A DNA stretch of 39,230 bases. It comes from Anaerolineae bacterium. GTDB taxonomy: Bacteria > Chloroflexota > Anaerolineae > Aggregatilineales > J027. Position 1 is the stretch's first letter. The number at the start of each line of letters is the position of its first letter. Positions 20,612-39,230 of the stretch are shown piece by piece. A model generated the notes under the pieces. The model saw only the letters and a program-made list of their open reading frames with translations. It ran no database searches and was not told the DNA's origin. Made by a program: the position numbers and the translations under genes. The DNA is taken from NCBI GenBank assembly GCA_019913005.1, contig JAIOHL010000105.1:75177-114406 (forward strand), given 5' to 3'.

Positions 20612-21958
20612 TCAAAGCGTCGCCCGCGCAAACTGTTCATAGCGTGCCCAAACTGACGGAGCCAGCGCCTTCGCCTCCTCCATAATCGCCCGTTCATCTA
20701 GCGTCAACAACTGCCGATCTCGCATCAACACCCGCCCCGCCGCAATCGTTGTCCGTACCATCGAAGCCTCAAATCCGAACAGGATATGCCACGCCAAATT
20801 GCCAGCTGTTAACGGGGTATAAGGCCGATAATCCACTACGATCAAATCCGCTGTCGCCCCCACCTCAATTTTGCCGATTTGCTGCTCCGGGAAAAACAGC
20901 GAAGCCAAACGTGCATTATTGACCAATGCCATCTTCGCAATCCCATCACCGGGGGCACGGCGTGGGTCGCCATAGGTCACTTTTTGCAGCAGATAGGCAG
21001 TTTTCCAATCGGCCCACATATTATTCGAGAAGCCATCATTACCCAAACATAGATTCATGTCCGCAGTCAACATCGCATCAATTTGGGCCGCCCCAACCGC
21101 GTTATTCATGTTGCTGCGCGGCTGATGGCTCACCCATGTCCCCGTATCCCGTAAAATCTCAAGTTCCCATGGGTCGCAATGCACCGCATGGGCCACAATC
21201 GTTTTTGGTCCTAAAATCCCCGCGTCACGCAGACGGTGTACTACTGGTTTGCCATATTTTTGCAGGCTGTCCCATTCATCCGCCTCATGTTCCGCCACAT
21301 GAATATGGAAACCTGTATCCAAGCCCTGCGCGGCACTCACACAATCCGCCAGTGTTTTTTCTGAGAGTGTCAAACTGGCATGGAGGCCAAATGTTGCCGA
21401 GACCATCGGGCGATTTTTCGCCGCCTGTAGAAAACGTACATTTTCAGCAATCCCCGCCTGCGTTTTTGCTACCCCGTCTCGATCTGTCACCTCATAACAC
21501 AGCACGGCTCGCACCCCGGCCTGTTCCACCGCATTAGCGATGATGTCCAACGACCCATCAATACAATTGGGGCTGGCGTGGTGGTCAATCAACGTTGTTG
21601 TGCCATGTTTGACCGCATCCACCAGACATACCAACGCACTCATCCGCACCGCATCCGCATCCAGCGCCTTATCCAGCGGCCACCACAACCGCTGCAAAAT
21701 TTCCGGGAAATCTTTGGGGGCCGGGCCGGGAATCGCCATCCCCCGTGCATACGCCCCGTAAAAATGGGTATGAGCACAAATACTCCCCGGCATCAACAAG
21801 CTGCCATCCGCATCTATCGTATCCGCATCAGGATATTCGGCCTGCAATTTTGCCGACAGCCCAATCGCCTTGATTTTGTCGCCCTCAATATAAACCGCGT
21901 GATTTTCAAGCAAACCACTGTCGGTCAGGGTTACAAGGGTTGCGTTCGTAATAAGCAT
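20612..21958 (-). CDS. ssnA: SsnA-like amidohydrolase (aminohydrolase of the purine-degradation cluster)
   Basis: 448 aa. Metal-dependent amidohydrolase marks: PGSICAHTHFYG (H63, H65), HIHVAEHEADEW, VAHAVHCDPWEL, LCLGNDGFSNNMW (Asp ligand), and a C-terminal GATADLIVVDY. LWWPLDKALD, TLIDHHASP, CYEVTDRDG and SHQPRSNMNNAVG also match E. coli SsnA closely as I remember it, more than they match guanine or cytosine deaminases. SsnA sits next to xdhD in the E. coli ygeW-xdhD region, linked to anaerobic purine breakdown, where it is thought to act on an oxidised purine-derived ring. It is the last gene of a long minus-strand run. A homolog of its usual partner XdhD begins at 38811. Confidence 0.85.
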   Translation of the reverse strand: MLITNATLVTLTDSGLLENHAVYIEGDKIKAIGLSAKLQAEYPDADTIDADGSLLMPGSICAHTHFYGAYARGMAIPGPAPKDFPEILQRLWWPLDKALDADAVRMSALVCLVDAVKHGTTTLIDHHASPNCIDGSLDIIANAVEQAGVRAVLCYEVTDRDGVAKTQAGIAENVRFLQAAKNRPMVSATFGLHASLTLSEKTLADCVSAAQGLDTGFHIHVAEHEADEWDSLQKYGKPVVHRLRDAGILGPKTIVAHAVHCDPWELEILRDTGTWVSHQPRSNMNNAVGAAQIDAMLTADMNLCLGNDGFSNNMWADWKTAYLLQKVTYGDPRRAPGDGIAKMALVNNARLASLFFPEQQIGKIEVGATADLIVVDYRPYTPLTAGNLAWHILFGFEASMVRTTIAAGRVLMRDRQLLTLDERAIMEEAKALAPSVWARYEQFARATL

Positions 21959-22753: not shown

Positions 22754-23509
22754 TTAATACAATTCTACCGGAATATCAATCATCTTCGCCCCGCCCAACC
22801 GTTCGATGTGCTCCATTATCTGATGGGCGCTCTCTTTTGCATCATCATCCGATAGATAATCATGCGGCTGCAAATAGACAAATTCTTCGCCTTCGCGTTT
22901 GTCTGCCGGATTGGTCGAGGCCGTTACATTGCCATTTTCACACAACACCCGTATCCGCGCCCCAATCGGATATTCAATTTCTGGCTTATCGGTCTTTTTG
23001 CTAGATCGTTCCGTTGACCGTGCCGCCTCCCAACTTCGCAGTGGATTAATCCCTCCTTGTTTAAGGGCATGAAACACCCGATCCACAAAATAATCGCTGG
23101 TGCTGTACAAATCGCGGATGTGGTGGGCCTGCTCAAAACGATCCCACGTAGTATAGATAAACGCGAAACGGTGCGGCTTGGGTTTATTGACAATCGGCGG
23201 GGTGCGTTCGATTAATTCCCGAAATTGGAGTTTGTAGTATTCCTCATCATCCCGTGCATGGGGTGATTCATCCGGCAGCAAGTCCCGCCGATGGGTCAGT
23301 TCATAACCCGCGATTTCAGCATAATACGCAATCGTGCTGGCCTGTTCGCCGAAAGTCTTGGCGCTGCTAAAAAACAGAGCAATATAACGGGCAGTGATAC
23401 CATTAGGGGCTTGTTTAGTGGGGACACGATACCAGTGCTGGTCACGCGCAATCTCAAAATCGCGTTTCCGTGAGACGACACCAACCAGCACCGCATCTTC
23501 AGGATTCAT
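22754..23509 (-). CDS. Conserved hypothetical protein
   Basis: 251 aa. The N-terminal third reads VLVGVVSRKRDFEIARDQHW, then YRVP, ITARYIALFFS, and YYAEIAGYELTHRRDLLPDE. Residues about 100-135 hold HRFAFIYTTWDRFEQAHHIRDLY. I recognise this as a pattern seen in other Chloroflexota unknowns, often next to DNA-binding or restriction genes, but I cannot name a Pfam family. The C-terminal 70 residues are acidic and charged. No catalytic motif stands out. It begins nine bases after the stop of the PLP enzyme at 23519, so the two are probably co-transcribed. Confidence 0.75.
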   Translation of the reverse strand: MNPEDAVLVGVVSRKRDFEIARDQHWYRVPTKQAPNGITARYIALFFSSAKTFGEQASTIAYYAEIAGYELTHRRDLLPDESPHARDDEEYYKLQFRELIERTPPIVNKPKPHRFAFIYTTWDRFEQAHHIRDLYSTSDYFVDRVFHALKQGGINPLRSWEAARSTERSSKKTDKPEIEYPIGARIRVLCENGNVTASTNPADKREGEEFVYLQPHDYLSDDDAKESAHQIMEHIERLGGAKMIDIPVELY

Positions 23510-23518
23510 GCAATGGAC

Positions 23519-24907
23519 TTACCCAACCCCATGCTGCCGACGAAATTCGACCAGCGCCGCGTCAATTTCTTGGATACGCTGTTGATGGCCTTCCCACCAT
23601 GCCGGGTCTTTTTGGGCATCCAGTTCTTCAACCGTTCGACCCTGCTGCTCGACCCATGTGTAATATTTCAGATTGTGCCAGCGGGTACGGGCTTCCTGTG
23701 AGCCATCCTGAATCCAATCGGTCTTTTGCCCATGATAAATCGAGCGCACCACCCCAACGGCCTCCGCTTCATCCAACACCCCATATTTGCCGCGCATCCA
23801 ATCCATCGTGCTGTAATAGCGCGACATCGAATCGGTAGCAATCGTATAGACGGCTTGATTCGGCCCGAAACCATAATGCTTGGCGGCTTTGATCGCCCCC
23901 AAAATATTGCAAATGCCGCTGATACCAAACATCGGCGCCAGTTTTTCAACCGTGCTCGATGGAACGCCAAAGCGCTTGACCAAGGCATCCAGCCCCGCTT
24001 CATCGGCGAACAGTTGCAGGCCGCGTAAACATTCCATATCGTCAATACAGATCATGGCGTCCATGTTCCAAGTATTATGAATCCACGTCACATGCTTGTC
24101 GCCAATCCCCTGAATTTCATGCGTCCCATAGCCATTATTAAACAGAGTCGGGCATTGAATCGGTTCAAGGCCCACAATCTTGTGTTCAGGAAAGGCTTGT
24201 TTCAGGCGATCTCCTGCCGCAATTGTACCTGCGCTGCCCATCGAACTGACATACGCCGCCGCCGTGCCATCACCAATGCCTTTAGCAGCCAATTCCTGTG
24301 CCAATTCGACAATCGTGTTCCCGGTCACATGATAATGGAAACGATAATTCCCCATGACCTCGAACTGATTCAAAATCCGCACATTCGGGTCTTGGCGCAG
24401 TTCCCAAGTTTTATCATAAATTTCTTTGACGTTGCTTTCCGAACCGACGGTGCGAATAATATCCGCCCCATAGCTTTCAATCAGTTGAAAGCGTTCCTCG
24501 CTCATCCCGGCGGGCAACACCACAATACTGCGACACCCCATCCGGCAGCCAACCCATGCTCCGCCGATGCCATAATTGCCCGTCGAGGGCCAGACCAGCG
24601 TATGCACATTTGGGTCAACTTCGCCAAATAACTGTTTCTCAATCAGTACGGAATACGCCGCGCCGACCTTGTGGCTACCACTGGGAAATTCTTTGCCATA
24701 CAACATGACAATCGGCGCTTCGACACCCGTTAATTCCGGTGGCAGCACCACATGGTAAACCTGATTGTTGCCATCACGCCATGTGATATTAAACAGGTTG
24801 ATCGGGTCAAGCGGGTCTTCCGTTCGCATCCGTAAGGCTTTGGCCCGAATCTGCGGGTCAATTTTTTGGGGATGCAGCATTTCTTCAAAGGTTGGGCCAG
24901 TAATCAT
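23519..24907 (-). CDS. Fold-type II PLP-dependent enzyme of uncertain substrate (cysteine synthase superfamily)
   Basis: 462 aa. The PLP lysine is K80 in EFPSGSHKVGAAY. The phosphate or carboxylate loop STGNYGIGGAW is at 108-118, and SSMGSAGTIAAG (about 237-248) matches the glycine-rich PLP phosphate loop. The fold-type II (threonine dehydratase/cysteine synthase) assignment is firm. The signature differs from OASS (TSGNT), DAPAL/YgeX (TDGNHGRG) and threonine synthase, and the protein is longer than these (about 310-400). A long C-terminal extension (about 395-462) is rich in W, Y and charged residues. The substrate is unknown. It lies in the directon with YgeW, carbamate kinase and SsnA homologs, so a diaminopropionate- or ureido-amino-acid lyase role is worth testing. 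Confidence 0.75.
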   Translation of the reverse strand: MITGPTFEEMLHPQKIDPQIRAKALRMRTEDPLDPINLFNITWRDGNNQVYHVVLPPELTGVEAPIVMLYGKEFPSGSHKVGAAYSVLIEKQLFGEVDPNVHTLVWPSTGNYGIGGAWVGCRMGCRSIVVLPAGMSEERFQLIESYGADIIRTVGSESNVKEIYDKTWELRQDPNVRILNQFEVMGNYRFHYHVTGNTIVELAQELAAKGIGDGTAAAYVSSMGSAGTIAAGDRLKQAFPEHKIVGLEPIQCPTLFNNGYGTHEIQGIGDKHVTWIHNTWNMDAMICIDDMECLRGLQLFADEAGLDALVKRFGVPSSTVEKLAPMFGISGICNILGAIKAAKHYGFGPNQAVYTIATDSMSRYYSTMDWMRGKYGVLDEAEAVGVVRSIYHGQKTDWIQDGSQEARTRWHNLKYYTWVEQQGRTVEELDAQKDPAWWEGHQQRIQEIDAALVEFRRQHGVG

Positions 24908-26269: not shown

Positions 26270-27547
26270 CTAAGCGATTTGCCAGTGTTTGACCTGACTG
26301 TGTACCGCGTCTAGCGACGGCTCTACCACAGGCGGTTTCTCGGAATTGACACTCTGCATCGCCGAGCGCACATCTTTCAAACCGGTGCCTGTCACCAACA
26401 ACAGCACCCTTTTATGGGGATGAATCATCCCGGCTGCAAGCGCGGGTTTTAGCGCCGCGAATGTTGCCGCCGCTGCGGGTTCTGCAAACACACCACTCCC
26501 CCGTGCCAATGCCGGAATCGCCGCCAAAATTTCTTCATCCGTCACGCGGATAAACGCACCATTGGTTTGACGGACGGCCCGTAGTGCTTTGGCCCGATCA
26601 CGCGGCAAGCGACTACTGATACTGTCCGCGATCGTATTGGCAGGTCGGTCTTGCATCTCAGCAGCGGATAGCTGATTCTCCCACGCATACACCAGCGCAT
26701 CACTGCCAGCGGCTTGCACCCCGATGAGGTGCGGAATTTTATCAAGCCACCCCTGTCGCTGCATATCCACTAAGCCCTTATGTACCCCACCGATGATGCT
26801 GCCATCTCCAACCGAAACAACAATCACATCTGGTAGGTGATAGCGAAGCTGCATGGCGATTTCCAGCGCAACTGTCTTTTTACCTTCCGAGGTAAACGGA
26901 TTGATCCCTGTACTGCGATTGTACCAACCAAATTCATCACAGGCCGCGCCGCATAGGTCAAACGCCGTATCATAGTCAGCATTGACCAGAATGACATTGG
27001 CCCCAAACACCACCATCTGTGCAATCTTGCCTTCTGGTGCTGTGGCTGGCGCAAAAATGACCGCATGTGAACCCGGCGTACTGGCACACACCCCGGCGAG
27101 GGCGGCGGCGGCATTCCCTGTGCTGGCAGTCGCAATCACCTGCCGGCCCAAATTTTGCACAGCATGAGCCACCACCATCGCGCTCGCTCGATCTTTGAGC
27201 GAACCCGTTATATTCAGGCCGTCATGTTTTATATACAGTTCAGCGACGCCGATTTCCGCAGCCAGTTTTGTTAAGGATTCAGGCCCAAGCAATGTTGTCC
27301 CACCAAATTTCTGCAATCCAGCGGGTGGCACGGCAGGTAAAATATCAGGCTGCTGCCACATCGTCAACAACCCCGCTTCAGCTTCATGGCGATGTGCCCC
27401 ACCCCGATACAACACATCCAGCGTTCCAACCGGGCCGCATGTAGGGCAGGTATACATCACCTCATCAAGGCTGTACATGGCCCCACAAATGACACACTGC
27501 AACCCGGTGATATGCGGTAGGCGTTCACTTAATCCGGCAGAATCCAT
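26270..27547 (-). CDS. Threonine synthase-like PLP-dependent enzyme
   Basis: 425 aa. A zinc-ribbon N-terminus (CVICGAMYSLDEVMYTCPTC) and the PLP lysine motif GLNITGSLKDRAS mark the threonine synthase group of fold-type II enzymes, with TASTGNAAAALAGV and a serine/glycine loop (VSVGDGSIIGG) after it. Threonine synthase would convert O-phosphohomoserine to threonine. The start codon overlaps the carbamate kinase gene by 19 bases, so translation is coupled. That neighbour and YgeW suggest a catabolic lyase related to threonine synthase rather than threonine synthesis. No thrA/thrB genes are nearby. The biochemical role is open. Confidence 0.8.
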   Translation of the reverse strand: MDSAGLSERLPHITGLQCVICGAMYSLDEVMYTCPTCGPVGTLDVLYRGGAHRHEAEAGLLTMWQQPDILPAVPPAGLQKFGGTTLLGPESLTKLAAEIGVAELYIKHDGLNITGSLKDRASAMVVAHAVQNLGRQVIATASTGNAAAALAGVCASTPGSHAVIFAPATAPEGKIAQMVVFGANVILVNADYDTAFDLCGAACDEFGWYNRSTGINPFTSEGKKTVALEIAMQLRYHLPDVIVVSVGDGSIIGGVHKGLVDMQRQGWLDKIPHLIGVQAAGSDALVYAWENQLSAAEMQDRPANTIADSISSRLPRDRAKALRAVRQTNGAFIRVTDEEILAAIPALARGSGVFAEPAAAATFAALKPALAAGMIHPHKRVLLLVTGTGLKDVRSAMQSVNSEKPPVVEPSLDAVHSQVKHWQIA

Positions 27548-28485
27548 GTCCCCGTCTCTCCCCGCAGTGCCCGCAAAATATTCGGTGGGTCAGTAATCAA
27601 GGCTTGTTGCCCTTGTTGACCCCCCCGCTCCAAAAATCGAATGGCGGCCTGAATCTTCGGTTTCATACTGCCTTCGGCAAATTCACCCGCTGCCATATAT
27701 TCTTTCGCTTGGGCAACGGTAATGCGGTCAAGATTTTGCTGCTGGGGGGTGTTGAATTTAATCGCTACCTGCTCCACCCCTGTCGAAATAAGAAATAAGT
27801 CGGCTTTCATATGCGAGGCCAGCAAACTCGATGCCCGGTCTTTATCAATCACCGACGGTGGCGCACCTTTGATTTCGCCTTCATCCGTGCGAATGACTGG
27901 AATCCCGCCTCCACCGCAGGCGATCACGATAAACCCGTCCTGAATCATGCGCTGAATCGCATCCAGTTCGACGATTTCCAATGGTTGAGGCGAAGCGATC
28001 ACCCGCCGCCATCCGCGACCCGCATCCTCCACCACCTGCCACCCATCTGCCTCAAATCTACGGGCCGTCGCTTCTTCCAAGAAGCCGCCAATCGGTTTGG
28101 TGGGGTTCTGAAAACCGGGATCATCTTTATTGACCAGCACCTGTGTAATGACCGTGACTACACCCCGCTGAATCTTGCGAGTATGAAGTGCGTTGCTGAG
28201 ACCCTGTTGCAGCATATAGCCAATCGCGCCTTGTGTATCCGCTCCGATCAAATCCAACGGGGTCGTATGGACTTCATGGGCTGCCAATTCATTGCGCCGT
28301 AGAATAAACCCGACCTGTGGGCCATTGCCATGTGTGACGACCACACTCCAGCCTTCTTCAATCATCGCCGCGATATGCTGGCAGGTCTCGTGTACCGCTT
28401 CCCATTGATGTCCCACATCAGGACGATTTTTGTCTAGTATCAGCGAATTGCCGCCAATCGCCACTACTGCGGTTTTGCTTGCCAT
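27529..28485 (-). CDS. arcC: Carbamate kinase
   Basis: 318 aa from ATG 28485 with AAGGA upstream; the in-frame extension to 28530 lacks support. Amino-acid-kinase fold marks: VVAIGGNSLI, VVTHGNGPQVG, TTPLDLIGADTQGAIGYMLQQ, KPIGGFL, IVIACGGGGIPV, IDKDRASSLLA and the C-terminal GSMKPKIQAAI. The length and all these motifs match YqeA/ArcC. The enzyme makes ATP from carbamoyl phosphate and ADP. Placed directly after YgeW, it would harvest the carbamoyl phosphate that enzyme releases (substrate-level phosphorylation), as proposed for the E. coli purine cluster. No arginine deiminase gene is present, so an arginine pathway is not supported here. Confidence 0.95.
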   Translation of the reverse strand: MASKTAVVAIGGNSLILDKNRPDVGHQWEAVHETCQHIAAMIEEGWSVVVTHGNGPQVGFILRRNELAAHEVHTTPLDLIGADTQGAIGYMLQQGLSNALHTRKIQRGVVTVITQVLVNKDDPGFQNPTKPIGGFLEEATARRFEADGWQVVEDAGRGWRRVIASPQPLEIVELDAIQRMIQDGFIVIACGGGGIPVIRTDEGEIKGAPPSVIDKDRASSLLASHMKADLFLISTGVEQVAIKFNTPQQQNLDRITVAQAKEYMAAGEFAEGSMKPKIQAAIRFLERGGQQGQQALITDPPNILRALRGETGTWILPD

Positions 28486-28521
28486 AGGTGCTATTCCTTT
28501 TTTAAATTTAAAGACACAAAG

Positions 28522-28560
28522 AGAGGCCACCTTTTAATCAAAAACCAAAGGCGTGCCTCT
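28522..28560 (-). promoter_or_regulatory. Intercistronic hairpin between ygeW-like and carbamate kinase genes
   Basis: On the minus strand AGAGGC-ACG-CCTTT pairs with AAAGG-TG-GCCTCT around an interior loop (6 bp plus 5 bp). It is in the spacer between the two genes, before an AAGGA ribosome site. It has no T run, so it may be an RNA stability or processing element rather than a terminator. Confidence 0.4.
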
Positions 28561-28593: not shown

Positions 28594-29577
28594 TTAACCC
28601 ATCGTCAGTGCCATCACCGCTTTTTGGGCGTGTAGGCGATTTTCGGCTTCATCATAGACCACGCTCTGTGGACCATCAATCACGCCGTCGGTGACTTCGA
28701 TATTGCGGTCAGCCGGTAGGCAGTGCATATAAATGGCGTCTTCGTTCGCCAGAGCCATACGGCGTTCGTCGGTGATCCAGTCCGTATATTTCTTCCCAAT
28801 CCGAGCACTTTCGGCGTTGTCAGTGGTGGTCAACAGCGCCCCCCAACTCTTGGGATACAGAATATCCGCGCCCTTGAAGCCCTCATCAAAATCATGCCCA
28901 ATCTCAAAACTGCCATGACTCCGGCGGGCATTTTCTTTGGCCTGTTCCAAAATATCGGGCATCAATTTGTATTCTGGTGGATGAGTCAGGCGCACATTCA
29001 TGCCATAGCGGGTCATCAGCAGAATCAGGCTTTGCGGCACGCTGATCGGTTTTTGATAGCTGGCGGCATAGGCCCAACTGACATTGATGGTTTTACCCTT
29101 GAGGCTTTCACGCCCAAAATATTCCTGAATCGTCATCAGGTCGGCCAGTGCTTGGAAGGGGTGATATACATCACATTGCATGTTCAAAACAGGCACGCGG
29201 CTGGCAGCGGCAACCTCGCGGATGTATTTATTGCCAAAATTCCAGTCACACTGACGAATAGCGATGCCGTCAAAATAGCGCCCAAAAATCTCGCCGATTT
29301 CTTTGGCAGTGTCGCCATGCGAAATTTGAGTGGTGTCGCTGTCAATAAAGGCTGCATGTCCGCCCAACTGGGCCATACCTGCCTCAAAGCTACCACGAGT
29401 ACGGGTGCTGGTGAAGAAAAAGAGCATCGCCAGTGTCCTATCACGCAGATACGCATGGGGTTCGCCCACTGCCCGTTTGCGCTTCAAATCAAAGGCTAAT
29501 TCAAAAACGGTATCTAGTTCGGCGCGTGTCCATTCCTGATCGGTAATCATATCGCGCCCTTTAAGATGGGTTTGCAT
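28594..29577 (-). CDS. ygeW: YgeW-like knotted carbamoyltransferase
   Basis: 327 aa. The carbamoyl-phosphate loop FFTSTRTRGSFE has STRTR at 57-61. It is followed by ISHGDTAKEI, the YHPFQALADL segment (H139-P-x-Q142), and the YgeW-family region around SWAYAASYQKPISVPQSLI and LMTRYGMNV, then KSWG, and MHCLPADRNIEVTDGVID. These match E. coli YgeW better than OTCase, ATCase or the known AOTCases as I remember them. YgeW is linked to phosphorolysis of a ureido-amino acid (proposed 2,3-diureidopropionate) into carbamoyl phosphate in purine breakdown. It is the first gene of the minus run, followed by carbamate kinase, and its upstream region is shared with the F420 operon. Confidence 0.88.
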   Translation of the reverse strand: MQTHLKGRDMITDQEWTRAELDTVFELAFDLKRKRAVGEPHAYLRDRTLAMLFFFTSTRTRGSFEAGMAQLGGHAAFIDSDTTQISHGDTAKEIGEIFGRYFDGIAIRQCDWNFGNKYIREVAAASRVPVLNMQCDVYHPFQALADLMTIQEYFGRESLKGKTINVSWAYAASYQKPISVPQSLILLMTRYGMNVRLTHPPEYKLMPDILEQAKENARRSHGSFEIGHDFDEGFKGADILYPKSWGALLTTTDNAESARIGKKYTDWITDERRMALANEDAIYMHCLPADRNIEVTDGVIDGPQSVVYDEAENRLHAQKAVMALTMG

Positions 29578-29784: not shown

Positions 29785-30462
29785 GTGAACGACGATAAAA
29801 TGATGGTAACAGTTGCCGTATTGGGTGGAACGGGTAAAGAGGGTTCCGGCTTGGCGATGCGATGGGCACAGAGCGGCTATCGTGTCATTGTCGGCTCACG
29901 CGATGCCGAACGCGCCAAGAGCAAAGCGGCTGAATTTAACGAAATTCTGGGCGAATCCCTCATCGAAGGCGCTCATAATCAAGAAGCCGCCGCCCGTGCC
30001 GATATTGTAGTGCTGACCGTCCCCTATGATGCGCACAAAGCCACCCTCGAAAGCGTGCGCAACGAAGTACAGGGCAAAGTTTTGGTAGATGTAACCGTCC
30101 CCATGCAGCCACCGGACATTCGCCGTGTATTTGTCCCCGCAGGCAAAGCCGCCGCGCTTGAAACGCAGGCCATTGTCGGCGATGGGGTCAAGGTTGTTTC
30201 GGCTTTCCAAAATGTCAGCGCCGCCCATCTCAAGAAACTGGAACATGAGGTTGCCTGCGATGTCCTAGTCACTGGCGATGATGACCAAGCCAAAACTGAG
30301 GTTATTCATTTGGTCGAGGCCGCCGGAATGCGTGGCATTGACGCTGGCCCACTCGCAAATGCGGTGGCGGCTGAGGCATTGACCGCCGTGCTGATGTATA
30401 TAAATAAGAAATATAGTGTCAAAGGCGCGGGCATTCATATTACAGGCATCGCTACGGAATAA
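29785..30462 (+). CDS. npdG: F420H2:NADP oxidoreductase
   Basis: 225 aa from a GTG at 29785, nine bases after AAGGA; ATG 29800 is the alternative. The NADP-binding loop is VAVLGGTGKEGSGLAMRW, followed by the VGSRDAERA phosphate-binding stretch. The ADIVVLTVPYDAH, VLVDVTVP and FQNVSAAHL segments match F420-dependent NADP reductases (Fno/NpdG) from methanogens and Actinobacteria. The enzyme moves hydride between F420H2 and NADP+. It is the first gene of the F420 operon and ends five bases before cofE, which supports the assignment over plain NADP dehydrogenases. Confidence 0.93.
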   Translation: MNDDKMMVTVAVLGGTGKEGSGLAMRWAQSGYRVIVGSRDAERAKSKAAEFNEILGESLIEGAHNQEAAARADIVVLTVPYDAHKATLESVRNEVQGKVLVDVTVPMQPPDIRRVFVPAGKAAALETQAIVGDGVKVVSAFQNVSAAHLKKLEHEVACDVLVTGDDDQAKTEVIHLVEAAGMRGIDAGPLANAVAAEALTAVLMYINKKYSVKGAGIHITGIATE

Positions 30463-30467
30463 ACGCT

Positions 30468-31241
30468 ATGCCGACAACGGAACTGAATTTAATCGCCCTA
30501 CCCGGTATCCCGCTGATTCAACCGGGAGACAATCTAGCCGTCGTGATTTTAGCCGCGCTCACACGAGCAGGTTTAACCCTGACCAATGGAGATATTCTCG
30601 TCGTGTCATCCAAAATTGTCTCCAAATCGCAAAATCGTTTTGTGGACTTGCGCGAAATCACCCCTTCACCGGAGGCCGTCTCATTGGGCGAAAAAACGCT
30701 CAAAGACCCCCGTATGGTCGAGGTAGCCCTGCGTGAATCCGTTGGTGTATCCCGCGCCGCACCCAATGTTCTAATCGTGCGCCACAAACTCGGTTTTACC
30801 TCCGCCAACGCAGGGATTGACCAATCCAACACGGGCAGTTTGGGCCATGACCTGATTTTGCTCCTACCCGAAAATCCCGATGAAGCCGCCGATGAATTGG
30901 CCCAATCGCTCGAAAAACAAACAGCGGTACGCCCCGGCATCGTCATCAGCGATACACATGGTCGGCCCTTCCGTATGGGCAATGTCAATGTCGCCATCGG
31001 CATCAGCGGCATCCCGTCCCTTTTAGATCAGCGCGGTTATCACGATTTATTTGGGCGTGAACTCAAGGCCACTGTCACCGCCTTTGCCGATCAACTGGCA
31101 GCAGCGGCAGGCTTGTTAACCGGAGAAGCCGATGAGGGCCAGCCTGTTATTTTGGTGCGCGGCCTAACATGGCCCAGCTATGCCGCGTCCGGTCACGCAA
31201 CGGATATGATTCGTCCGCCCGATATGGACTTGTATCGCTAA
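30468..31241 (+). CDS. cofE: Coenzyme F420-0:L-glutamate ligase
   Basis: 257 aa. CofE/FbiB-N marks: a GDNL loop, DILVVSSKIVSKSQ, RMVEVALRES, RHKLGFTSANAGIDQSN, LLLPENPDE, VISDTHGRPFR, VNVAIGISGIP, and the end VRGLTWP. The enzyme adds gamma-linked glutamates to F420-0 (or dehydro-F420-0) using GTP. It is the single-domain CofE form; the reductase domain that FbiB carries at its C-terminus is the next gene, whose ATG overlaps the CofE stop by one base. Length fits the family (about 250). Confidence 0.95.
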   Translation: MPTTELNLIALPGIPLIQPGDNLAVVILAALTRAGLTLTNGDILVVSSKIVSKSQNRFVDLREITPSPEAVSLGEKTLKDPRMVEVALRESVGVSRAAPNVLIVRHKLGFTSANAGIDQSNTGSLGHDLILLLPENPDEAADELAQSLEKQTAVRPGIVISDTHGRPFRMGNVNVAIGISGIPSLLDQRGYHDLFGRELKATVTAFADQLAAAAGLLTGEADEGQPVILVRGLTWPSYAASGHATDMIRPPDMDLYR

Positions 31242-31852
31242 TGACAGAGCAGTTTCAAGGATTTGCCGCACTTGCCAGAAGCCGTCGTTCGGTGCGTGTC
31301 TATGAAGACCGCCCGCTTGCCGATGACCTACTGCGCGAATTATTAGAAATAGCCATCTGGTCGCCCTCGGCCCACAATCGTCAACCGTGGCGATTTGCCG
31401 TCGTGCGTGACCCGGCCCGTAAGGAACAGTTAGCGAACCAAATGGCCCACCAATTGCGTAAAGATTTAGAGGCCGACGGTGTAGCGGAAGAAATGATTGC
31501 CGCCGATACCGGACGCTCCACTAGCCGCATGATCAGCGCATCGGCCCTTATTGTTTTGTGTTTTACAATGGTAGACATGGATCGTTATCCTGACGCCAAA
31601 CGCAGCGAGGCCGAACGCATCATGGCGATGCAAAGTGCTGCGATGGCTGGGCAAAATTTGCTCCTAGCGGCTCATGCAGCAGGTTTAGGCGCATGTTGGA
31701 TGTGTGCGCCATTGTTTTGCCCGGATGTGATATGCGATTCCCTTGAACTCCCACTCGATTGGGAGCCACAGGCACTCATTACATTGGGCTATCCTGCCCA
31801 ATCGCGGACACGAACCCGCGAACCACTAGAAACGCGAGTCTTATGGCGCTAA
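31241..31852 (+). CDS. Nitroreductase-like FMN enzyme, probable dehydro-F420-0 reductase (FbiB C-terminal type)
   Basis: 203 aa from ATG 31241 (overlap of one base with CofE); an in-frame extension upstream lies inside cofE. Nitroreductase fold marks: RSRRSVRVYEDRPL, AIWSPSAHNRQPWRFAVV, AADTGRSTSRMISAS, MAGQNLLLAAHAAGLGACWM, ITLGYP. The FbiB C-terminal domain of mycobacteria is of this class and reduces dehydro-F420-0, made when CofD uses phosphoenolpyruvate. Here it is a separate protein directly between CofE and CofD. That position supports the reductase role and a PEP-based F420 route. The overlap with cofD is ten bases. Confidence 0.85.
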   Translation: MTEQFQGFAALARSRRSVRVYEDRPLADDLLRELLEIAIWSPSAHNRQPWRFAVVRDPARKEQLANQMAHQLRKDLEADGVAEEMIAADTGRSTSRMISASALIVLCFTMVDMDRYPDAKRSEAERIMAMQSAAMAGQNLLLAAHAAGLGACWMCAPLFCPDVICDSLELPLDWEPQALITLGYPAQSRTRTREPLETRVLWR

Positions 31853-32820
31853 AAAGCGAAAATCTACACCCGAAGATCGTAGCCTTAGCGGGTGGTGTTG
31901 GCGGCGCGAAATTGGCGCATGGCCTAGCTCGGATTTTGCCTCCCAACCACCTCACCGTCATCGTCAACACAGGCGACGATTTTGTGCATCGCGGCCTGAA
32001 TATCTCTCCCGACCTCGACACCGTGATGTATACCCTCGGCGAAATTGCCAACCCAAAAACTGGGTGGGGCATTGACGGCGATACGTTCCAAAATTATGAG
32101 ATGTTGGAACGCTATGGGGTGGCCCCTTGGTTCCGCTTGGGAGATCGTGACCTCGCCACGCATTTTGTACGGACGGAAGCGCTCCAAAACGGGCAAACCC
32201 TCACCGAGGTCACCCAGCAGCTATCCCAAGCATTAGGCATCCAACAGACCATTTTGCCCGCCACCGACGACCCTTTTGCCACGCTAGTAGACACTCAAGA
32301 ATATGGAAGGTTGGAATTTCAGGAATATTTCGTGAAATTTCGGTGGCAACCGACCGTAGTTGGGTTATCCTATAAGGGAGAGGGGGAAGCACAAGCAACC
32401 CAGATGGCACTGGACGCGATTCATGATGCTGATTTGGTTGTGATCTGTCCTTCTAACCCCCTGCTCTCAGTTGAGCCTATTTTAAGGCTAGGTGGTATAC
32501 GTGAGGCGATTCAATCCCGCCACGTTCCCTGCATCGCGGTCAGCCCCTTAATCGGGGGAAAAGCTGTCAAGGGGCCAGCCGCAAAATTGATGGAGGAACT
32601 CAAATTGGATGCCTCGGTTAAGGGTATCGCGGCCTATTATGCGAGTCTGATAGATGGATTAGTCATAGATACCGCCGATACCGACGTCGTTGAGGAGCTA
32701 AGAAAATCCGCTCCCGCCCTGTCTCTAATTGTGACACAGACGCTGATGGAGACCATTGAAGATCGAGAACGTCTGGCAGGCGAAATCCTGAAATGGATAT
32801 TGGAGGGAATTAGTTTGTGA
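31843..32820 (+). CDS. cofD: 2-phospho-L-lactate (or PEP) transferase
   Basis: 325 aa from ATG 31843; the longer in-frame start lies inside the nitroreductase gene. CofD/FbiA marks: VALAGGVGGAKLAHGL near the N-terminus, VIVNTGDDFVHRGLNISPDLDTV, WFRLGDRDLATH, LPATDDP, VVICPSNPLLSVEPIL, and CIAVSPLIGGKAVKGPA. The enzyme joins Fo with the phospholactate or phosphoenolpyruvate moiety carried as a GMP-diphospho intermediate made by CofC. The next gene begins with an overlapping GTGA. FbiC/CofG-CofH, needed to make Fo, is not in the window. Confidence 0.95.
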   Translation: MALKSENLHPKIVALAGGVGGAKLAHGLARILPPNHLTVIVNTGDDFVHRGLNISPDLDTVMYTLGEIANPKTGWGIDGDTFQNYEMLERYGVAPWFRLGDRDLATHFVRTEALQNGQTLTEVTQQLSQALGIQQTILPATDDPFATLVDTQEYGRLEFQEYFVKFRWQPTVVGLSYKGEGEAQATQMALDAIHDADLVVICPSNPLLSVEPILRLGGIREAIQSRHVPCIAVSPLIGGKAVKGPAAKLMEELKLDASVKGIAAYYASLIDGLVIDTADTDVVEELRKSAPALSLIVTQTLMETIEDRERLAGEILKWILEGISL

Positions 32821-33467
32821 AAACGTGGGCCGTACTCCCAGTCAAACCGTTGGTGCGGGGCAAAAGTCGTCTTGCACCCGTTTTATCACCTGCCCAGCGC
32901 GAAAAACTTTCGCTCGGCATGTTACTACACAATATCCAACTGCTTAAAAGTTTAGGCTGTATCAGCAATATTTTGGTGATTAGCCGCGATACCAAAGTGC
33001 TTTCGATTGCACGTGATCTCGGTGTGTATACTGTGCAAGAAAGCGGACAACCAGAACTCAACCCGGCCTTGATGCGTGCCTCCAAATTAATTCACACATG
33101 GGGCGGCGAGGCCATGCTCATCTTACCCAGCGACATCCCGCTAGTCTCTGCCGAAGACATTGAACAGATTGTTCATTTGGGGCGTTTCCCTGCCACGATG
33201 GTCATTGCCCCCGATACCGCCAGAGACGGCACCAACGCCTTATTCGTTCATCCTCCCGGCCTAATTCCTTATAGCTATGGGACGGGGAGTTTTCAACGAC
33301 ACATTGCGGAAGCTGAATTAGCCGGCGCAACCGTCGAAGTCTATGAATCCGAACGCCTCGCCTTAGACGTGGACACTCCCCCCGATTTGGATGAATATGT
33401 CCGTCTAGCCGCCAAATACAACGTCCCCATCATTGATTTTCAATTGCAACAGGTGATCGAAGGCTAA
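32817..33467 (+). CDS. cofC: 2-phospho-L-lactate (or PEP) guanylyltransferase
   Basis: 216 aa from a GTG at 32817 that overlaps the cofD stop by four bases (GTGA), so translational coupling is expected. Marks: WAVLPVKPLVRGKSRLAPVLS, ILVISRDTKV, MLILPSDIPLV, DTARDGTNALFV, and SFQRHIAEAE. CofC activates phospholactate (CofC) or phosphoenolpyruvate (FbiD) with GTP for CofD. The protein is complete and of normal length. It is the last gene of the operon; a terminator hairpin follows 20 bases after the stop. Confidence 0.95.
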   Translation: MKTWAVLPVKPLVRGKSRLAPVLSPAQREKLSLGMLLHNIQLLKSLGCISNILVISRDTKVLSIARDLGVYTVQESGQPELNPALMRASKLIHTWGGEAMLILPSDIPLVSAEDIEQIVHLGRFPATMVIAPDTARDGTNALFVHPPGLIPYSYGTGSFQRHIAEAELAGATVEVYESERLALDVDTPPDLDEYVRLAAKYNVPIIDFQLQQVIEG

Positions 33468-33480
33468 CCATAAAACCAGA

Positions 33481-33519
33481 TATAATCAAAGGGCGGCATA
33501 TCCAGACCCGCCCTTTTTT
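33481..33519 (+). terminator. Terminator after cofC, with an embedded TATAAT
   Basis: AAAGGGCGG pairs with CCGCCCTTT (33488-33496 and 33508-33516, 9 bp, 11-base loop), followed by further T residues. TATAAT (33481-33486) stands just before the hairpin. The same TATAAT-ATCAAA-hairpin-T run-ribosome site order recurs before the gene at 34377. Confidence 0.75.
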
Positions 33520-33534
33520 GTTTGGGAGTTTAAC

Positions 33535-34248
33535 ATGGCGACAGCAAGCCCTCGTTGGTATCTCGCCCAAATCATTGAAGAACAGAAATTTGAGCATGGC
33601 GGCAATCTCCTAGATGTCAACTTTGTGTTGATTTCTGCCACATCCGATGAAGATGCTTATACATTTGCTCTTGAGGTCGGCCATAGATATAAACATTCAT
33701 ATTTGGTGGCTGATATAGAAGATCCGCGTGAATGGGAACAGGCCGAAAAAGAACTGGTCACTAGTATTTTTCGCGGTTTGCGAAATCTCAGTCTCATCGG
33801 CCCGGATTTGAAACATGGCACTGAAATGTACTGTGAAAGACCAAGATTGCTGACCGAAGATGAAATTGGGGAACTGGTCGCCCCAAAAGAGGAGCAGAGC
33901 GTCTTTACCGACTGGATACCCAAACATGCTGAGTGGTATATCGCCGAAATCATAAAATCGGCGAGGCAAAATGATGATGGATTGTTCATCGTTTACCGCT
34001 GCATGATATTGATAAAAGCCGCCCTACCTGATGAGGCATTTGAACGGGCTATGGAGTTCGGAAGAACCCTTAATATTGATACCACTCGATTTTGGGGCAT
34101 CCGTATGGTATACGTCGTACACGACCCATTAGAGCATGGCGAGGAAATGGCATTTGAACGTCAAGAAGATGTCAGTGAAACAGGAATCCAACAAATGATT
34201 TGCCCTAAAGAACATCTGGCTATTTTTGAGAATCCAGATTTTCGCTAA
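33535..34248 (+). CDS. Protein with two tandem DUF4288-like domains
   Basis: 237 aa. Two similar halves are visible: SPRWYLAQIIEE, VNFVLISATSDEDAYTFALE (about residues 4-45), and AEWYIAEIIKSA, YRCMILIKAALPDEAFERAM (about 126-170). Each half ends with a GxEMxFE/CE-type stretch (HGTEMYCERPRLL; HGEEMAFERQEDV). The WYxAxII and ILIxA..DEA pattern fits DUF4288 as I remember it. The function is unknown; it is cytoplasmic with no membrane segments. The gene follows the F420 operon with its own leader, and a REP-like repeat begins at its stop codon. Confidence 0.7.
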   Translation: MATASPRWYLAQIIEEQKFEHGGNLLDVNFVLISATSDEDAYTFALEVGHRYKHSYLVADIEDPREWEQAEKELVTSIFRGLRNLSLIGPDLKHGTEMYCERPRLLTEDEIGELVAPKEEQSVFTDWIPKHAEWYIAEIIKSARQNDDGLFIVYRCMILIKAALPDEAFERAMEFGRTLNIDTTRFWGIRMVYVVHDPLEHGEEMAFERQEDVSETGIQQMICPKEHLAIFENPDFR

Positions 34249-34376: not shown

Positions 34377-35384
34377 ATGACTGACCGTGCAGCCCTTTAT
34401 TTGCAAGATGCCCACAGCATTCAGCAGGGTATTCAACTGGTGAAATATGCCGAGAAAAAAGGCTTTGAAGCCGTTTGGCAAGCCGAAAGCCGCCTCGTGC
34501 GTGATGCGATTGTCCCGATGGCTGCTTTTGCCGCCCATACGGATCGCATTTTGATTGGGTCGGGGGTGGTCAACAATTGGACGCGCAATGTCGCCCTCCA
34601 TGCCGCCACCTTTTTGACGCTGGACGACCTTGCTCCCAACCGTATCATCTGTGGTATCGGCGCGTGGTGGGATCCGTTAGCTGCCAATGTTGGCATCGAA
34701 CGCCGCAAGCCCCTCCTCGCCATGCGCGAATATGTGACCGTCACCCGCGACCTGCTCAATATGAAGCGTGTCACCTTTCACGGCGAATTTGTGAATGTCG
34801 AAGGCATCGAACTCGACGTGGTGCATGGTCGCCGCGAACCCCGCCATGTGCCGATTTATATCGGGGCGACGGGTGACAAAATGTTGGCGCTCAGTGGGGA
34901 AATCGCTGATGGGGTACTGTTAAATTACATGGTGTCGCCGCAGTATAACATCAAGGCGCTGGAAATGATCGAACAGGGCGCGAAACTGGCAGGCCGCAAG
35001 CTGGATGCGATTGACCGTCCCCAATTGGTCATTTGCTCGGTAGACCGTGATCGCAAACGTGCTTTGAATTCGGCGCGTAAATTGGTGACCCAGTATCTCG
35101 GTCAGCAGCCCCATCTCATGAAAGCCAGTGGCGTGCGCCAAGAATTATTGGACGAAATTCATCAGGTACTGAAGTGGCCCGCCACCGAAGAAGAAATCGA
35201 AAACGCCATGACCCTCGTTCCCGATGATGTGGTACAGGCCGTCACCGCCAGCGGCACACCCGATGAAGTGAAGGCAAAGGTGCGCGAATACTGTCAATAT
35301 GGCTGCACCTGCCCCGTGTTGTATCCGTTAAGCCCCGATGTCGAACTGATGATTGATACCTTCGCGGGTGGCTATTTAAACTAG
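34377..35384 (+). CDS. LLM class F420-dependent oxidoreductase
   Basis: 335 aa, GGAG before the ATG. TIM-barrel luciferase-like monooxygenase fold: [49 protein letters not shown] (family signature), [33 protein letters not shown], and [27 protein letters not shown]. The close sequence to Mer-type F420-dependent reductases (GVV, YIGATG) and the F420 biosynthesis operon just upstream favour F420 over FMN as cofactor. The substrate is not evident. It is followed after eight bases by a thioesterase gene. Confidence 0.88.
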
Positions 35385-35392: not shown

Positions 35393-35881
35393 ATGTCTGA
35401 GCATCAACACGCCTTACAACCCAATTCGCAGATGTGTTTTGTCTGTGGGGTATCCAATCCAATTGGCCTAAAGAGCCGCTTTTATTCGGTGGGGGATAAT
35501 CGAGTTGAACTACGCTTGACCTTCACCGACCCCTATCAGGGCTACCCCGGCATCACACACGGCGGCATCATCGCCACAATTTTAGATGAAACGATGGGGC
35601 GGGCGCTTTTGGCGTCCAACCAAGAACGCCTCATGATGACCGCCAAGATGGAAATCAAATATCGCCTGTCCGTCCCCCTGAACACCGAGATTTTATTTCG
35701 GGGCGTGGTCATCAAAGACAAAGGCCGTATCGCCCAAGCCGAGGGGTACGCGATTTTGCCGGATGGCAGCATCGCCGTCGAAGCCAATGGAACCCTGATG
35801 CAAATCCCGACTGATAAACTCTCGGAAATGAATACTCCTGAAGTCGGCTGGCGAATTTACGAGGATTATGAAATCGAATAA
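35393..35881 (+). CDS. Hotdog-fold thioesterase (PaaI/acyl-CoA thioesterase-like)
   Basis: 162 aa. NSQMCFVCGVSNPIGLKSRF at the N-terminus and YPGITHGGIIATILDETMGRAL in the middle are the HGG-IxxxLDE motifs of single-hotdog thioesterases; TAKMEIKYRLSVPLNTEI and AEGYAILPDGSIAVEANG complete the fold. The MCFVCG head is typical of the UPF0152/PaaI-like group. It would hydrolyse an acyl-CoA, perhaps linked to the LLM enzyme upstream. The last 14 bases overlap the start of the next gene. Confidence 0.88.
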   Translation: MSEHQHALQPNSQMCFVCGVSNPIGLKSRFYSVGDNRVELRLTFTDPYQGYPGITHGGIIATILDETMGRALLASNQERLMMTAKMEIKYRLSVPLNTEILFRGVVIKDKGRIAQAEGYAILPDGSIAVEANGTLMQIPTDKLSEMNTPEVGWRIYEDYEIE

Positions 35882-38498
35882 GTTTAGATGGTCACGCGAT
35901 CTGACGGCATGGTTCATCATCTGCCTTGCCGTCGGAATCGTCTCTTTGCTTTACCTCTCATTGGGCTTGGCAGCGAGTAATGGCCCGCTGCTGATGCCCC
36001 TTGATGATACCTATATCCATTTTCAATATGCGCGTCAGATGGCATCCGGCGAACCCTATGTCTACAGCCCCGGTGATCACCCGACCTCCGGCGCGACCAG
36101 CTTTTTATATACCCCCCTGCTGGCAGTCGGCTATTTCATCGGTTTTCATGGCCTGTATTTGGCATATTGGGCCGTCGCCATTGGATCACTCAGCTTTTTA
36201 TTGAGCGCGTGGCTGATCTTCCGCCTCATGATGGAATCGCCTGTCGCCAAACGCCCCCTCGATCCCCTATTTGAGCAGGGCGGCGAACATCAAGCCATGT
36301 GGTGGATTGCCCTCCTCATCACGCTGGCCTATATCGTGACTGGCGCGATGGTCTGGGCAGCCGTCAGCGGCATGGAGACGATGCTGTTTTTGCTGGCGGT
36401 GCTGTTGAGTCTGTATACCTATCAGCGCAGCAATCCCAAACATATGGCATGGGCCGGAGCATTTGCCGCCCTCACCCGTCCCGAAGGTGCGATTATTGCC
36501 CTCTCCCTCACTCTGATTTTGTTATACCGCAGCCGCCGTGCCAAGCAATTCCATTGGTTGGATTTCCTGCCCTTTTTTGCCATCTACGTCCAACCGCTGG
36601 TCAATTTTGCGATGACGGGTTCGGTATCTGCCAGTGGCAATCAAGCCAAATCCATCCTGTACGATGTCACCATCCCAATGGATGAACGCATTGGCAAAGT
36701 CATCGGTCAATGGGTGCGGATGTTGGGGGAATTGGTCTTTGGCGCGAGTGAGGTAGACGGGGTTTATATCACCATCATTGTGGCATTTCTGGCGATGCTG
36801 GCGATTTTTGTCTCCCTCCGTACCAGTCTCAGCAAAAAGGAACTTCGCCCCACCGTCTTAGCCTTTATCTGGATTATGCTGTTATCCGCCGCCATCGCCA
36901 CCCTCGATACCGCCTTTTGGCACTTTAAACGTTATCAACTCCCCATGATGGCCTTGCTTTTTCCGCTGGTGGGGTCAATGTTATTCGGCTTCATTTCGAT
37001 TGGTGTGGTCAACCGCCGCTGGATGATTACCATTGCCGCGATTATTTTGTTCTTCCAAGCCAACACCACCCTCGACTTTGCCGGACGCTATCATGACAAC
37101 ATCGGCGTCGTGCATGATCAGCAGTTGGCAATGGCCCGTTGGGTAAACCAAAATTTGCCCAAAGAGGCGCGGGTTGGTGTACATGATGTTGGCATGATAG
37201 CCTATATCGGCAATCGTAAGGTCTATGATGTCGTTGGCCTCACCACCCCCGATGCCGCCGAAGCATGGTGGCAGGGACCGGGTGCGATTTACGAAACAAT
37301 GGCCCATCATCCCTATCGCCCCAATTATTTTGCCATCTATCCCGACGTGCGCGGCCTCCCCATGTTGCAGGAAGCAGGCGTCTTTGGCGAAGAACTCGCC
37401 CGTTTTGAAATTGACCTCCCGCAGCATACCGTCGCCTCCGCCACTGGGACGCAGATTGTCACGAAGGCCGATTGGTCACTGACCAATGCCGAAGATGTAG
37501 TGCATCAGCCCTCCATTCTGCCGTATTTGGAAGGCTATGAACTATTTCAGGTAATTGATGTTGGGAATTTGGAAAGCGAGGCAAAAGCCGACTATGAAGT
37601 TAAGGATAATGAAACTTCAGGTGGTTTTGCCACTGACGTAAGGCATCTATCCTATCTCAACTGCTCGGAGAACTGTGATGTTATAGACGGAGGTCGTATT
37701 ATCACAGGCGGAGAGAAATTCACGATTAACGATCAGGGAACAAATACGAATGCCTATCTGATTATTTTGAGAGTCCACGCATCTGAGCCGGCGAGTCTGA
37801 TTTTAGATGTAGATTGTTTTGGTTGCAGTTTGGAGGATGTCGTCGTACCAAATATTCCCGGACATTGGGTGGATATTCCATTTTTGATAGGAAATCGGCT
37901 TGGTACTCAATCGACTATTTCTATAGATGCTCGCTATGGAACCAGATACTACGCCTATAGCTATTTTATTTTTCGCCATATAGGAGAAAAAAATCTGTCT
38001 GAAACTACTAATGAGACAAATCCTGTAGCGATTTTTGGGATTCCAATGATAGATGCATTTTCTGCAAATGGCACTCCGGCAGTGTGGCCTGTTTGCGAGG
38101 ACAGGGTGTCATGTTACGAGAACCTTGAACTCTCAGCAGTCAGTTTTGAAAACGCAAATAAATCAGTTCAAGTAAATTTAGATTGGTATCTGCCTCTCTC
38201 AGAGAACTTGTCTAGGGACGGCAAAATCTTCGTCCATCTCTACGACGACCCCAACCAACCGCCGATTAAACAAATAGATGTCTGGCCCGGTGGGTCATTG
38301 CCCCCTGCCAACTGGCTTCCGGGCTATCGTTCGGATGCCGTGACCCTGCCCCTCGATGACGTGCCGCCGGGGACATATTCGCTGGCAATCGGCATCTACG
38401 ACCCCAATACCAATGAGCGGTATACTGTAATAGATCAACGCACCGCCGAGTCATCAGATCGGCTGTTTTTGGGAGAGGTGGTAATCGGCAATGACTGA
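35868..38498 (+). CDS. GT-C type membrane glycosyltransferase with C-terminal soluble domains
   Basis: 876 aa. An N-terminal helix (about 14-34) is followed by an acidic first loop (D46-D47 in MPLDDTYIHFQYARQMASGE) and TSGATSFLYTPLLA, then about nine more helices up to residue 410. This DD loop and the following PTSG segment are typical of arabinofuranosyl- or mannosyltransferase-like GT-C enzymes using polyprenyl-phosphate sugars. Residues about 415-540 are soluble (MARWVNQNLPKEARVGVHD, the usual family extracytoplasmic domain). Residues about 560-785 are AT-rich in DNA and look like an added beta-rich domain; residues 785-875 resemble the C-terminal domain of the DUF2723 protein at 1909. 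Confidence 0.85.
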   Translation: MKSNKFRWSRDLTAWFIICLAVGIVSLLYLSLGLAASNGPLLMPLDDTYIHFQYARQMASGEPYVYSPGDHPTSGATSFLYTPLLAVGYFIGFHGLYLAYWAVAIGSLSFLLSAWLIFRLMMESPVAKRPLDPLFEQGGEHQAMWWIALLITLAYIVTGAMVWAAVSGMETMLFLLAVLLSLYTYQRSNPKHMAWAGAFAALTRPEGAIIALSLTLILLYRSRRAKQFHWLDFLPFFAIYVQPLVNFAMTGSVSASGNQAKSILYDVTIPMDERIGKVIGQWVRMLGELVFGASEVDGVYITIIVAFLAMLAIFVSLRTSLSKKELRPTVLAFIWIMLLSAAIATLDTAFWHFKRYQLPMMALLFPLVGSMLFGFISIGVVNRRWMITIAAIILFFQANTTLDFAGRYHDNIGVVHDQQLAMARWVNQNLPKEARVGVHDVGMIAYIGNRKVYDVVGLTTPDAAEAWWQGPGAIYETMAHHPYRPNYFAIYPDVRGLPMLQEAGVFGEELARFEIDLPQHTVASATGTQIVTKADWSLTNAEDVVHQPSILPYLEGYELFQVIDVGNLESEAKADYEVKDNETSGGFATDVRHLSYLNCSENCDVIDGGRIITGGEKFTINDQGTNTNAYLIILRVHASEPASLILDVDCFGCSLEDVVVPNIPGHWVDIPFLIGNRLGTQSTISIDARYGTRYYAYSYFIFRHIGEKNLSETTNETNPVAIFGIPMIDAFSANGTPAVWPVCEDRVSCYENLELSAVSFENANKSVQVNLDWYLPLSENLSRDGKIFVHLYDDPNQPPIKQIDVWPGGSLPPANWLPGYRSDAVTLPLDDVPPGTYSLAIGIYDPNTNERYTVIDQRTAESSDRLFLGEVVIGND

Positions 38499-38810: not shown

Positions 38811-39230
38811 ATGAAAATTGACTTCACCCTCAACAGACAACCGACCACCTTTGAAATCGCCCCCCATGACACCCTATTGCGGGCGTTGCGAAATCACGGC
38901 ATTTTTGGCGTAAAATTCGGCGACGAAACAGGTATGTCCGGTTCGGATACCGTTTTGCTGGATGGCGACCCCGTGCTGGCAGGCATGATGTTGGCGGCGC
39001 AGGTGGCAGGTCGTGATGTGCTGACCATTGAAGGCGTCGGCGGCGCACAGGAGCGTGGGTGGCGGGGCACACAACCCCTCCACCCCCTGCAAACCGCCTT
39101 TATCGAAACCGGCGCGATTCAATGCGGCTACGAATCCCCGGCCTTCATTTTATGTGCGCTGGCCCTCCTGCGAAAAAATCCCTCCCCCACCGAAGCTGAG
39201 GTGCGTGAAGCCATTGCAGGTGTTCTCAGC
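38811..39230 (+). CDS. xdhD: XdhD/YgfN-like molybdenum hydroxylase, N-terminal degenerate ferredoxin domain (3'-truncated by window edge)
   Basis: 140 codons visible from ATG 38811 (GAGGA at 38799-38803). The layout follows the two-[2Fe-2S] domain of xanthine dehydrogenase: an N-terminal MKIDFTLN beta strand, the DTVLLDG loop, a helical segment with QTAFIETGAIQCGYESPAF, then PTEAEVREAIAG. The cysteines of canonical GCxxGxCGxC and DGxPVxSC are D38, S43, D46 and G58, and QCGFCTPG is QCGYESPA (C108 to E). The start of the CRCTGY motif is S140. E. coli XdhD (YgfN) also has this cysteine-poor N-terminus, as I remember it. XdhD is a selenium-linked Mo-hydroxylase next to SsnA, proposed to oxidise purines. 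The catalytic domain is outside the window. Confidence 0.8.
   Translation, partial: MKIDFTLNRQPTTFEIAPHDTLLRALRNHGIFGVKFGDETGMSGSDTVLLDGDPVLAGMMLAAQVAGRDVLTIEGVGGAQERGWRGTQPLHPLQTAFIETGAIQCGYESPAFILCALALLRKNPSPTEAEVREAIAGVLS

Follow-up and report, generated by a model that had tools for sequence, protein, structure and literature searches.

Two [2Fe-2S] clusters are regarded as standard equipment of the xanthine oxidase family, where electrons canonically pass between the Mo centre, the two clusters and a flavin or an external protein (PMC12316806). One of the closest described counterparts of the protein discussed here is E. coli XdhD (b2881, formerly YgfN), which likewise consists of a fused head and Mo domain, has no cluster cysteines and carries Glu606. 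It was reported to reduce urate to yanthine with NADH and to start anaerobic urate breakdown, its gene cluster also contains ssnA, and a protein of about 30 kDa, putatively YgfM, co-purified with it (PMC12507026). In PMC2997495, the xanthine dehydrogenase (XDH) activity of XdhD is predicted only. The initiating urate reductase of the same pathway in Clostridium sporogenes, XdhAC, is likened to it here by its published description, and its physiological electron donor was called undiscovered (PMC12990295).

Two solved structures come closest to L047, a whole copy of our gene from the same genus. 4-Hydroxybenzoyl-CoA reductase (PDB 1rm6), whose Mo domain is the nearest by sequence and which is third by Foldseek, catalyzes a reductive dehydroxylation with FeS and FAD subunits and full clusters, and it differs from the L047 type in substrate. 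Desulfovibrio gigas aldehyde oxidoreductase (PDB 1sij), the best Foldseek match, resembles L047 in having a fused head and Mo domain without FAD but differs in that its two [2Fe-2S] clusters form a relay (PMC12316806). The enzyme family and the pathway are known already. We found no report of cluster loss in XdhD among the listings of an open-access library, a scope too narrow to establish that the loss is undescribed: the accessible text of PMC12507026 contains 'cysteine' 0 times and 'Fe-S' twice, in its section on YgfK, with no mention of cluster loss, and that of PMC12990295 has no mention of cluster loss in XdhD.

The window (the whole stretch of 39,230 nucleotides that was analysed, from an Anaerolineae genome) closes with an open frame of 140 amino acids that continues past the edge (Table 1). 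Its last base is the end of contig C364, hence the xdhD-type gene is cut by the assembly. As papers number the two clusters differently, 'distal' stands here for the ferredoxin-type site, with the first four Cys, and 'proximal' for the site in the helical domain, with the last four. The family hallmark of 4 + 4 Cys for two [2Fe-2S] clusters is absent. The replacements D38, S43, D46, G58, E108 and S140, listed by a first-pass annotation of this DNA, were all found on re-reading the translation, and the cysteines left in the head are C105, a proximal ligand, and one further, C115. With the fourth proximal position read in relatives, the gene retains none of the four distal and one of the four proximal Cys. 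Pfam recognizes the second [2Fe-2S] domain in this head (PF01799, 57.9 bits, cut-off 30.3), and the first domain scores below its cut-off (PF00111, 13 vs 21).

Table 1. Features of the window; scores are followed by the cut-off of the model in brackets.
Feature	Coordinates	Strand	Remarks
SsnA aminohydrolase	20612..21958	-	NF005540 530.7 (444); TIGR03314 508.4 (455.5)
251-aa protein, unknown family	22754..23509	-	no Pfam/NCBIfam match
PLP-dependent enzyme (PALP)	23519..24907	-	no NCBIfam model over cut-off among the 25 listed
PLP-dependent enzyme, threonine synthase-like	26270..27547	-	TIGR00260 169.8 (167.1), just over
Carbamate kinase	27529..28530	-	NF009007 387 bits (266)
Carbamoyltransferase	28594..29577	-	ornithine/acetylornithine models best, YgeW models lower; none over cut-off
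F420-dependent NADP oxidoreductase-like protein	29785..30462	+	PF03807
CofE, F420 biosynthesis	30468..31241	+	TIGR01916 256 bits (181)
Nitroreductase-family protein, FbiB C-terminal-like	31169..31852	+	below NCBIfam cut-offs
CofD, F420 biosynthesis	31759..32820	+	TIGR01819 322 bits (257)
CofC, F420 biosynthesis	32817..33467	+	TIGR03552 161 bits (105)
Luciferase-like (LLM) F420-type oxidoreductase	34377..35384	+	PF00296 215.3 bits; NCBIfam LLM/F420 models below cut-off
Thioesterase-superfamily (4HBT) protein	35393..35881	+	conserved upstream of xdhD
876-aa protein	35868..38498	+	no Pfam match; directly before xdhD in window-clade loci reaching it (canonical, half, clusterless)
XdhD-type Mo protein, N-terminal head, residues 1-140	38811..39230	+	both [2Fe-2S] sites lost; cut by contig end

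Three of the four other genomes of the genus that were searched contain the whole gene (L047-L049), with heads 94-96% identical to that of the window; the fourth (G107) has no close match to the window head (best E 4.9e-27). L047, L048 and L049 show all seven ligand states that can be read in the window, as does L050 (77%), whose gene likewise ends at a contig end. A frameshift, or cysteines restored just beyond the window edge, would have explained the loss as apparent only. Both are rejected: the contig end cuts the gene, and the frames of L047-L049 are open at full length and read RDTGYVKPV after residue 140, so that the CRCTGY motif has become SRDTGY and its second CRC Cys is D142.

Another contig of this genome, C35, starts in frame at the position equivalent to residue 184 of L047, with about 43 residues missing between C364 and C35 and no overlap of the two. 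We infer that it is the continuation of the window gene because of this in-frame start, because it groups with L047-L049 in trees (100/100 support, up to 98% identity), and because the genes that follow it are of the same kind and order as those 3' of xdhD in L047-L049. The Mo-binding catalytic domain, which the first-pass annotation proposed to look for past the edge, is present and ordinary in L047-L049. The Ald_Xan_dh_C and MoCoBD_1/2 domains of the xanthine oxidase family are all over cut-off in L047 (PF01315, PF02738 and PF20256), and PF02738 is over cut-off in C35. The catalytic Glu of the family is present in all 50 aligned rows that reach its position (L057 stops short). An AlphaFold model of L047, built from a 23-row alignment, has the expected head elements, its mean pLDDT of 65.4 is mediocre, and it is too weak for distances; head segments 34-43, 79-87 and 139-145 fall below 50, two of them at the former cluster loops. 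In Foldseek, this model retrieves the D. gigas enzyme first with an E value of 7.9e-57, but with an rmsd of 14.2.

Regarding the family, the assignment as XdhD-like holds, with 41% identity between L047 and E. coli XdhD and Glu606 kept, as does the description of the E. coli XdhD/YgfN head as cysteine-poor. Glu606 was proposed as XdhD-specific from a model (Li et al. 2025, PMC12507026). Of 51 aligned proteins, with E. coli XdhD and C35 among them, all 51 have Glu at the equivalent position, whatever the state of the head; E. coli XdhA and a second Chloroflexota XDH (L062 XDH2) are gapped there. Membership in the selenium-dependent group, claimed by the first-pass annotation, is unsupported: TIGR03311 (selenium-dependent xanthine dehydrogenase) gives 329.7 for C35 and 404.9 for L047 against a cut-off of 830.45. 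That the gene belongs to the XdhD group itself is correct as far as likeness goes, but the cut-off of TIGR03313 (XdhD, Se_sel_red_Mo; 1101.9) is not reached by L047 (717.2) or the C35 part (640.1; E. coli XdhD 2122.8), and the head loss is probably separate from that of E. coli. At E <= 1e-150, TIGR03313 finds matches in 4 of the 301 genomes from the window's phylum and in 6 of the 398 from the phylum of G396, none over cut-off.

The gene neighbourhood points to urate. SsnA is a marker of the reductive urate pathway, and in Chloroflexota an F420-type luciferase-family protein was proposed as the yanthine reductase that replaces YgfK (PMC12507026). The window contains both SsnA and a PF00296 reductase, a profile search of the window genome found no YgfK over cut-off, and YgeY is over cut-off outside the window (C163:61843-63009, 468.8 vs 321.5 bits). 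The window fits the Chloroflexota form of the pathway. SsnA, carbamate kinase and carbamoyltransferase, which the first-pass annotation did not cite, further support the XdhD-like reading. E. coli, in contrast, has YgfK and an adjacent ygfM, where the window genome has the LLM F420-type protein and a YgfM-like gene elsewhere. Contig C163 also encodes a two-gene XDH (30631-33757), with a 747-aa Mo frame and a 537-aa fused FeS/FAD frame.

The order F420 genes, LLM, 4HBT, 876-aa protein, xdhD and xdhC is common to two-cluster loci (L058, L061, L062), proximal-only loci (L051, L056) and clusterless loci (L047-L049), the last with two to four other genes between xdhD and xdhC. The ssnA gene lies directly before the F420-to-xdhD genes in L050, L051, L053, L056, L058, L061 and L062; in the window it is on the strand opposite to the F420 genes and about 7.8 kb away. 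The window and its relatives have the same gene set, not one identical operon. Canonical-headed XdhD-like proteins of Chloroflexota (L058, L061, L062 and L069) share this neighbourhood and clade and are 74-76% identical to L047, yet unlike L047 they keep all eight cluster Cys. The 251-aa protein is found beside ssnA in L051, L053, L056, L058, L061 and L062 (43-55% identity) and is an unnamed urate-locus gene. In L112, a ygfM-like gene is found in the place that the 876-aa protein occupies in the window clade.

Matches to the window head were found in 369 of the 396 genomes of the class. We read the heads of the best-scoring 129 matches, the window itself excluded (29 loci and the next 100); only best-scoring matches were read, and therefore the sample leans towards window-like heads. 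One misplaced row (L024) was left out, and the 128 remaining heads, all from one class, comprise 55 with both clusters, 26 proximal-only, 8 distal-only and 39 with neither cluster or one Cys. Some of the 55 two-cluster heads may be other Mo enzymes. Among 80 loci found by window-like peptides, 61 are proximal-only, nine have all eight Cys and seven have at most one, the other three having truncated, broken or oddly aligned heads. The 47 proximal-less heads keep at most one proximal Cys. Their first proximal position is Ser in 44 and Cys in three, and the position of the second CRC Cys is a carboxylate in every one (Glu 44, Asp 3). Distal replacements vary by lineage (D-S/T-D, S-D-S or S-T-A/S), and 43 of 65 heads have Gly, Val or Ile at position 58. 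Four distal-only heads (L271-L274) keep all four distal Cys and have lost the proximal site on the cofactor side, which would leave the distal cluster stranded. In L116 (10001-10418), the head frame ends after 121 residues and the match resumes in another frame, as from an assembly frameshift.

Both parts of the protein are under purifying selection, the head with a dN/dS of 0.033-0.091 in the seven of ten comparisons where dS could be estimated (three were saturated) and the Mo domain with 0.020-0.035 in six comparisons. The recurrence of the seven ligand states and the low dN/dS of the head confirm that the loss of ligands is real, neither chance nor decay. The second Cys of CRC forms a hydrogen bond with the pterin. 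In its place, a carboxylate could preserve this contact, which may be why the head survives.

The first-pass annotation held that electrons must leave by another subunit, and a nearby FAD or FeS subunit was to be looked for. All 13 genome handles that were searched, that of the window among them, do have a YgfM-like gene (G232 and G1061 appear to be the same genome; G107 has the gene without a close XdhD head). In the window genome, it lies on contig C21 and not beside xdhD, so the adjacent YgfM FAD subunit of XdhD is missing there. There (G000:C21:198452-199240; L154, L164), it follows a pheS-like frame, by reading, and its FAD motifs are altered. The motifs of the window clade are YGG[VAM] and T[IL]GD, and the canonical-headed G1058 is no exception; E. 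coli XdhB has AGGT and YGGN, and E. coli YgfM has AGGS and IGGE. The second motif has AG instead of GG in 33 of 35 YgfM-like neighbours. In L280-L284, no more than about 1.5 kb separates a clusterless XdhD from a YgfM-like gene with an intact second glycine motif; in L285 and L286, the second FAD motif is missing too (by reading). The flavin module thus varies separately as well. Transfer through another subunit is unsupported in the window genome, given the position and the altered motifs of this candidate. Furthermore, the stated direction is unsupported: E. coli XdhD is reported to reduce urate (PMC12507026), so electrons would need to enter.

We favour, with a probability of about two in three, a working urate dehydroxylase of the XdhD type that takes part in the F420 variant of the reductive urate pathway and whose intramolecular [2Fe-2S] relay would have been dismantled while the Mo domain stayed intact. 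The lost cluster ligands are replaced mostly by polar or acidic residues. Selection would retain the ferredoxin-like and helical parts of the head as a scaffold set against the pterin cofactor, and the Mo centre would receive its electrons without the two clusters, most likely directly from a small donor or from a partner docked elsewhere, to convert urate to yanthine. We infer the substrate, the enzyme activity, the scaffold role and the direct route, with gene context and one residue as the basis for urate. That the cluster states form a mosaic speaks against the head as the path of the electrons. A distal-only protein cannot use the canonical chain, yet L271-L274 keep both the catalytic and the XdhD-specific Glu; most simply, electrons in this clade already bypassed the head before the losses. 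Textbook Fe-S wiring is an unlikely route for electrons into these enzymes. It counts against this explanation that many relatives keep all eight Cys, and in those the clusters may still serve.

Direct reduction, or reduction by a partner, ranks first among the routes, a flavin route second and a closed purine loop third. In the flavin route, electrons from NADH would pass through a YgfM-like FAD subunit, by an altered FAD-Mo geometry or as a mobile reduced flavin, which we consider possible but unlikely. The flavin of canonical enzymes sits on the far side of both clusters, at a distance too great for direct transfer to Mo. The gene of the window genus is also away from xdhD and has YGGV or YGGM in place of GGT, and T[IL]GD in place of IGG; L285 and L286 lack the second motif as well. 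Points for the flavin are the E. coli enzyme, reported active with NADH despite its Cys-less head and co-purified with the protein of about 30 kDa (PMC12507026), and a confident AlphaFold3 complex of XdhD and YgfM (ipTM 0.94) cited in a commentary (PMC12990295), so that a flavin partner may be needed; L280-L284, where genes near a clusterless XdhD keep the second glycine motif, and the occurrence of a YgfM-like gene in every handle searched also speak for this route. The usual electron path would be missing from an XdhD-YgfM model of the kind in PMC12507026, which is based on the R. capsulatus XDH complex.

An enzyme that needs no outside electrons at all would be a purine transhydroxylase, in which, for example, C8 of xanthine reduces Mo and C6 of urate re-oxidises it, giving yanthine. 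No relay is needed for such a loop, which fits every cluster state, distal-only included, as well as the altered FAD motifs and the conservation of the catalytic and the XdhD-specific Glu in the rows examined; if it were true, the clusters would be jobless, hence either could be lost first and all four combinations would survive. It is nevertheless rather improbable, as deletion of xdhA in E. coli leaves xanthine unconsumed while deletion of xdhD accumulates urate in the same medium, and urate and NADH give yanthine with E. coli XdhD (PMC12507026). The fuller version of it, an XdhD-type enzyme with no Fe-S cluster and, in the window clade, no working flavin partner, running on a closed purine redox loop, appears improbable to us as well. 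Another metal site, or an unusual cluster with Asp, Ser and Glu ligands that still conducts electrons, is very unlikely: the replacements are mostly polar, and Asp or Glu stands at the second CRC Cys in 47 of 47 heads, but the distal replacements differ by lineage and so do not support a common metal site, position 58 is mostly Gly, Val or Ile, and no more than one proximal Cys is kept in these 47 heads. Gene decay or an assembly error, suggested by the cut at the contig end, is hardly credible given the same states in L047-L050, the full-length open frames of L047-L049 and the low dN/dS of both parts. The natural series from one bacterial class, together with E. coli XdhD, suggests that the Fe-S wire is dispensable, and the loss pattern makes the question of the electron donor testable.

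The history of the losses was read from a tree restricted to the Mo domain. It comprises 50 proteins over 771 columns, with 36 of its 47 inner branches starred; its rows were picked to cover the head states, and E. coli XdhD was left out of it and of the single-origin tests. The tree requires at least seven changes at the distal and at least five at the proximal site. A single proximal loss is rejected (p 5.5e-7 with 30 rows; p 1.7e-44 in a later test), as is a single distal loss (p 1.2e-91 with 30 rows; p 1.5e-4 with 50 rows) and a single loss for the window clade and L106-L122 alone (p 3.2e-4). For the window clade taken by itself, the test does not reject a single distal loss (p 0.104). In the clade of L065 and L108, the tree suggests that the distal site went first; in L271-L274, whose sister group L275-L279 has lost both sites, it suggests that the proximal site did. 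A strict outside-in order (FAD motif, then distal, then proximal) was rejected because distal-only heads exist and because clusterless XdhD genes lie near YgfM-like genes with an intact second motif. A swap of heads by recombination was rejected as well, since a tree of the heads keeps those of the window clade together, canonical ones included. The heads appear to have been inherited with their own Mo domains, for the 34 rows of this tree (157 columns, the eight Cys columns removed), which is weakly resolved in places and lacks the 20 proteins added later. In it, L113 moves beside the window clade.

E. coli XdhD lies elsewhere in the tree, on a long end branch (2.04), so its cluster loss is probably, not certainly, independent of that of the window clade. 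The finding bears on its label. In the records listed, xdhD of E. coli K-12 (L127:16317-19187) is annotated as Mo/Fe-S-binding subunit, yet residues 1-160 contain 0 Cys. The first 584 bases of this gene match in 5131 of 5426 E. coli genomes.
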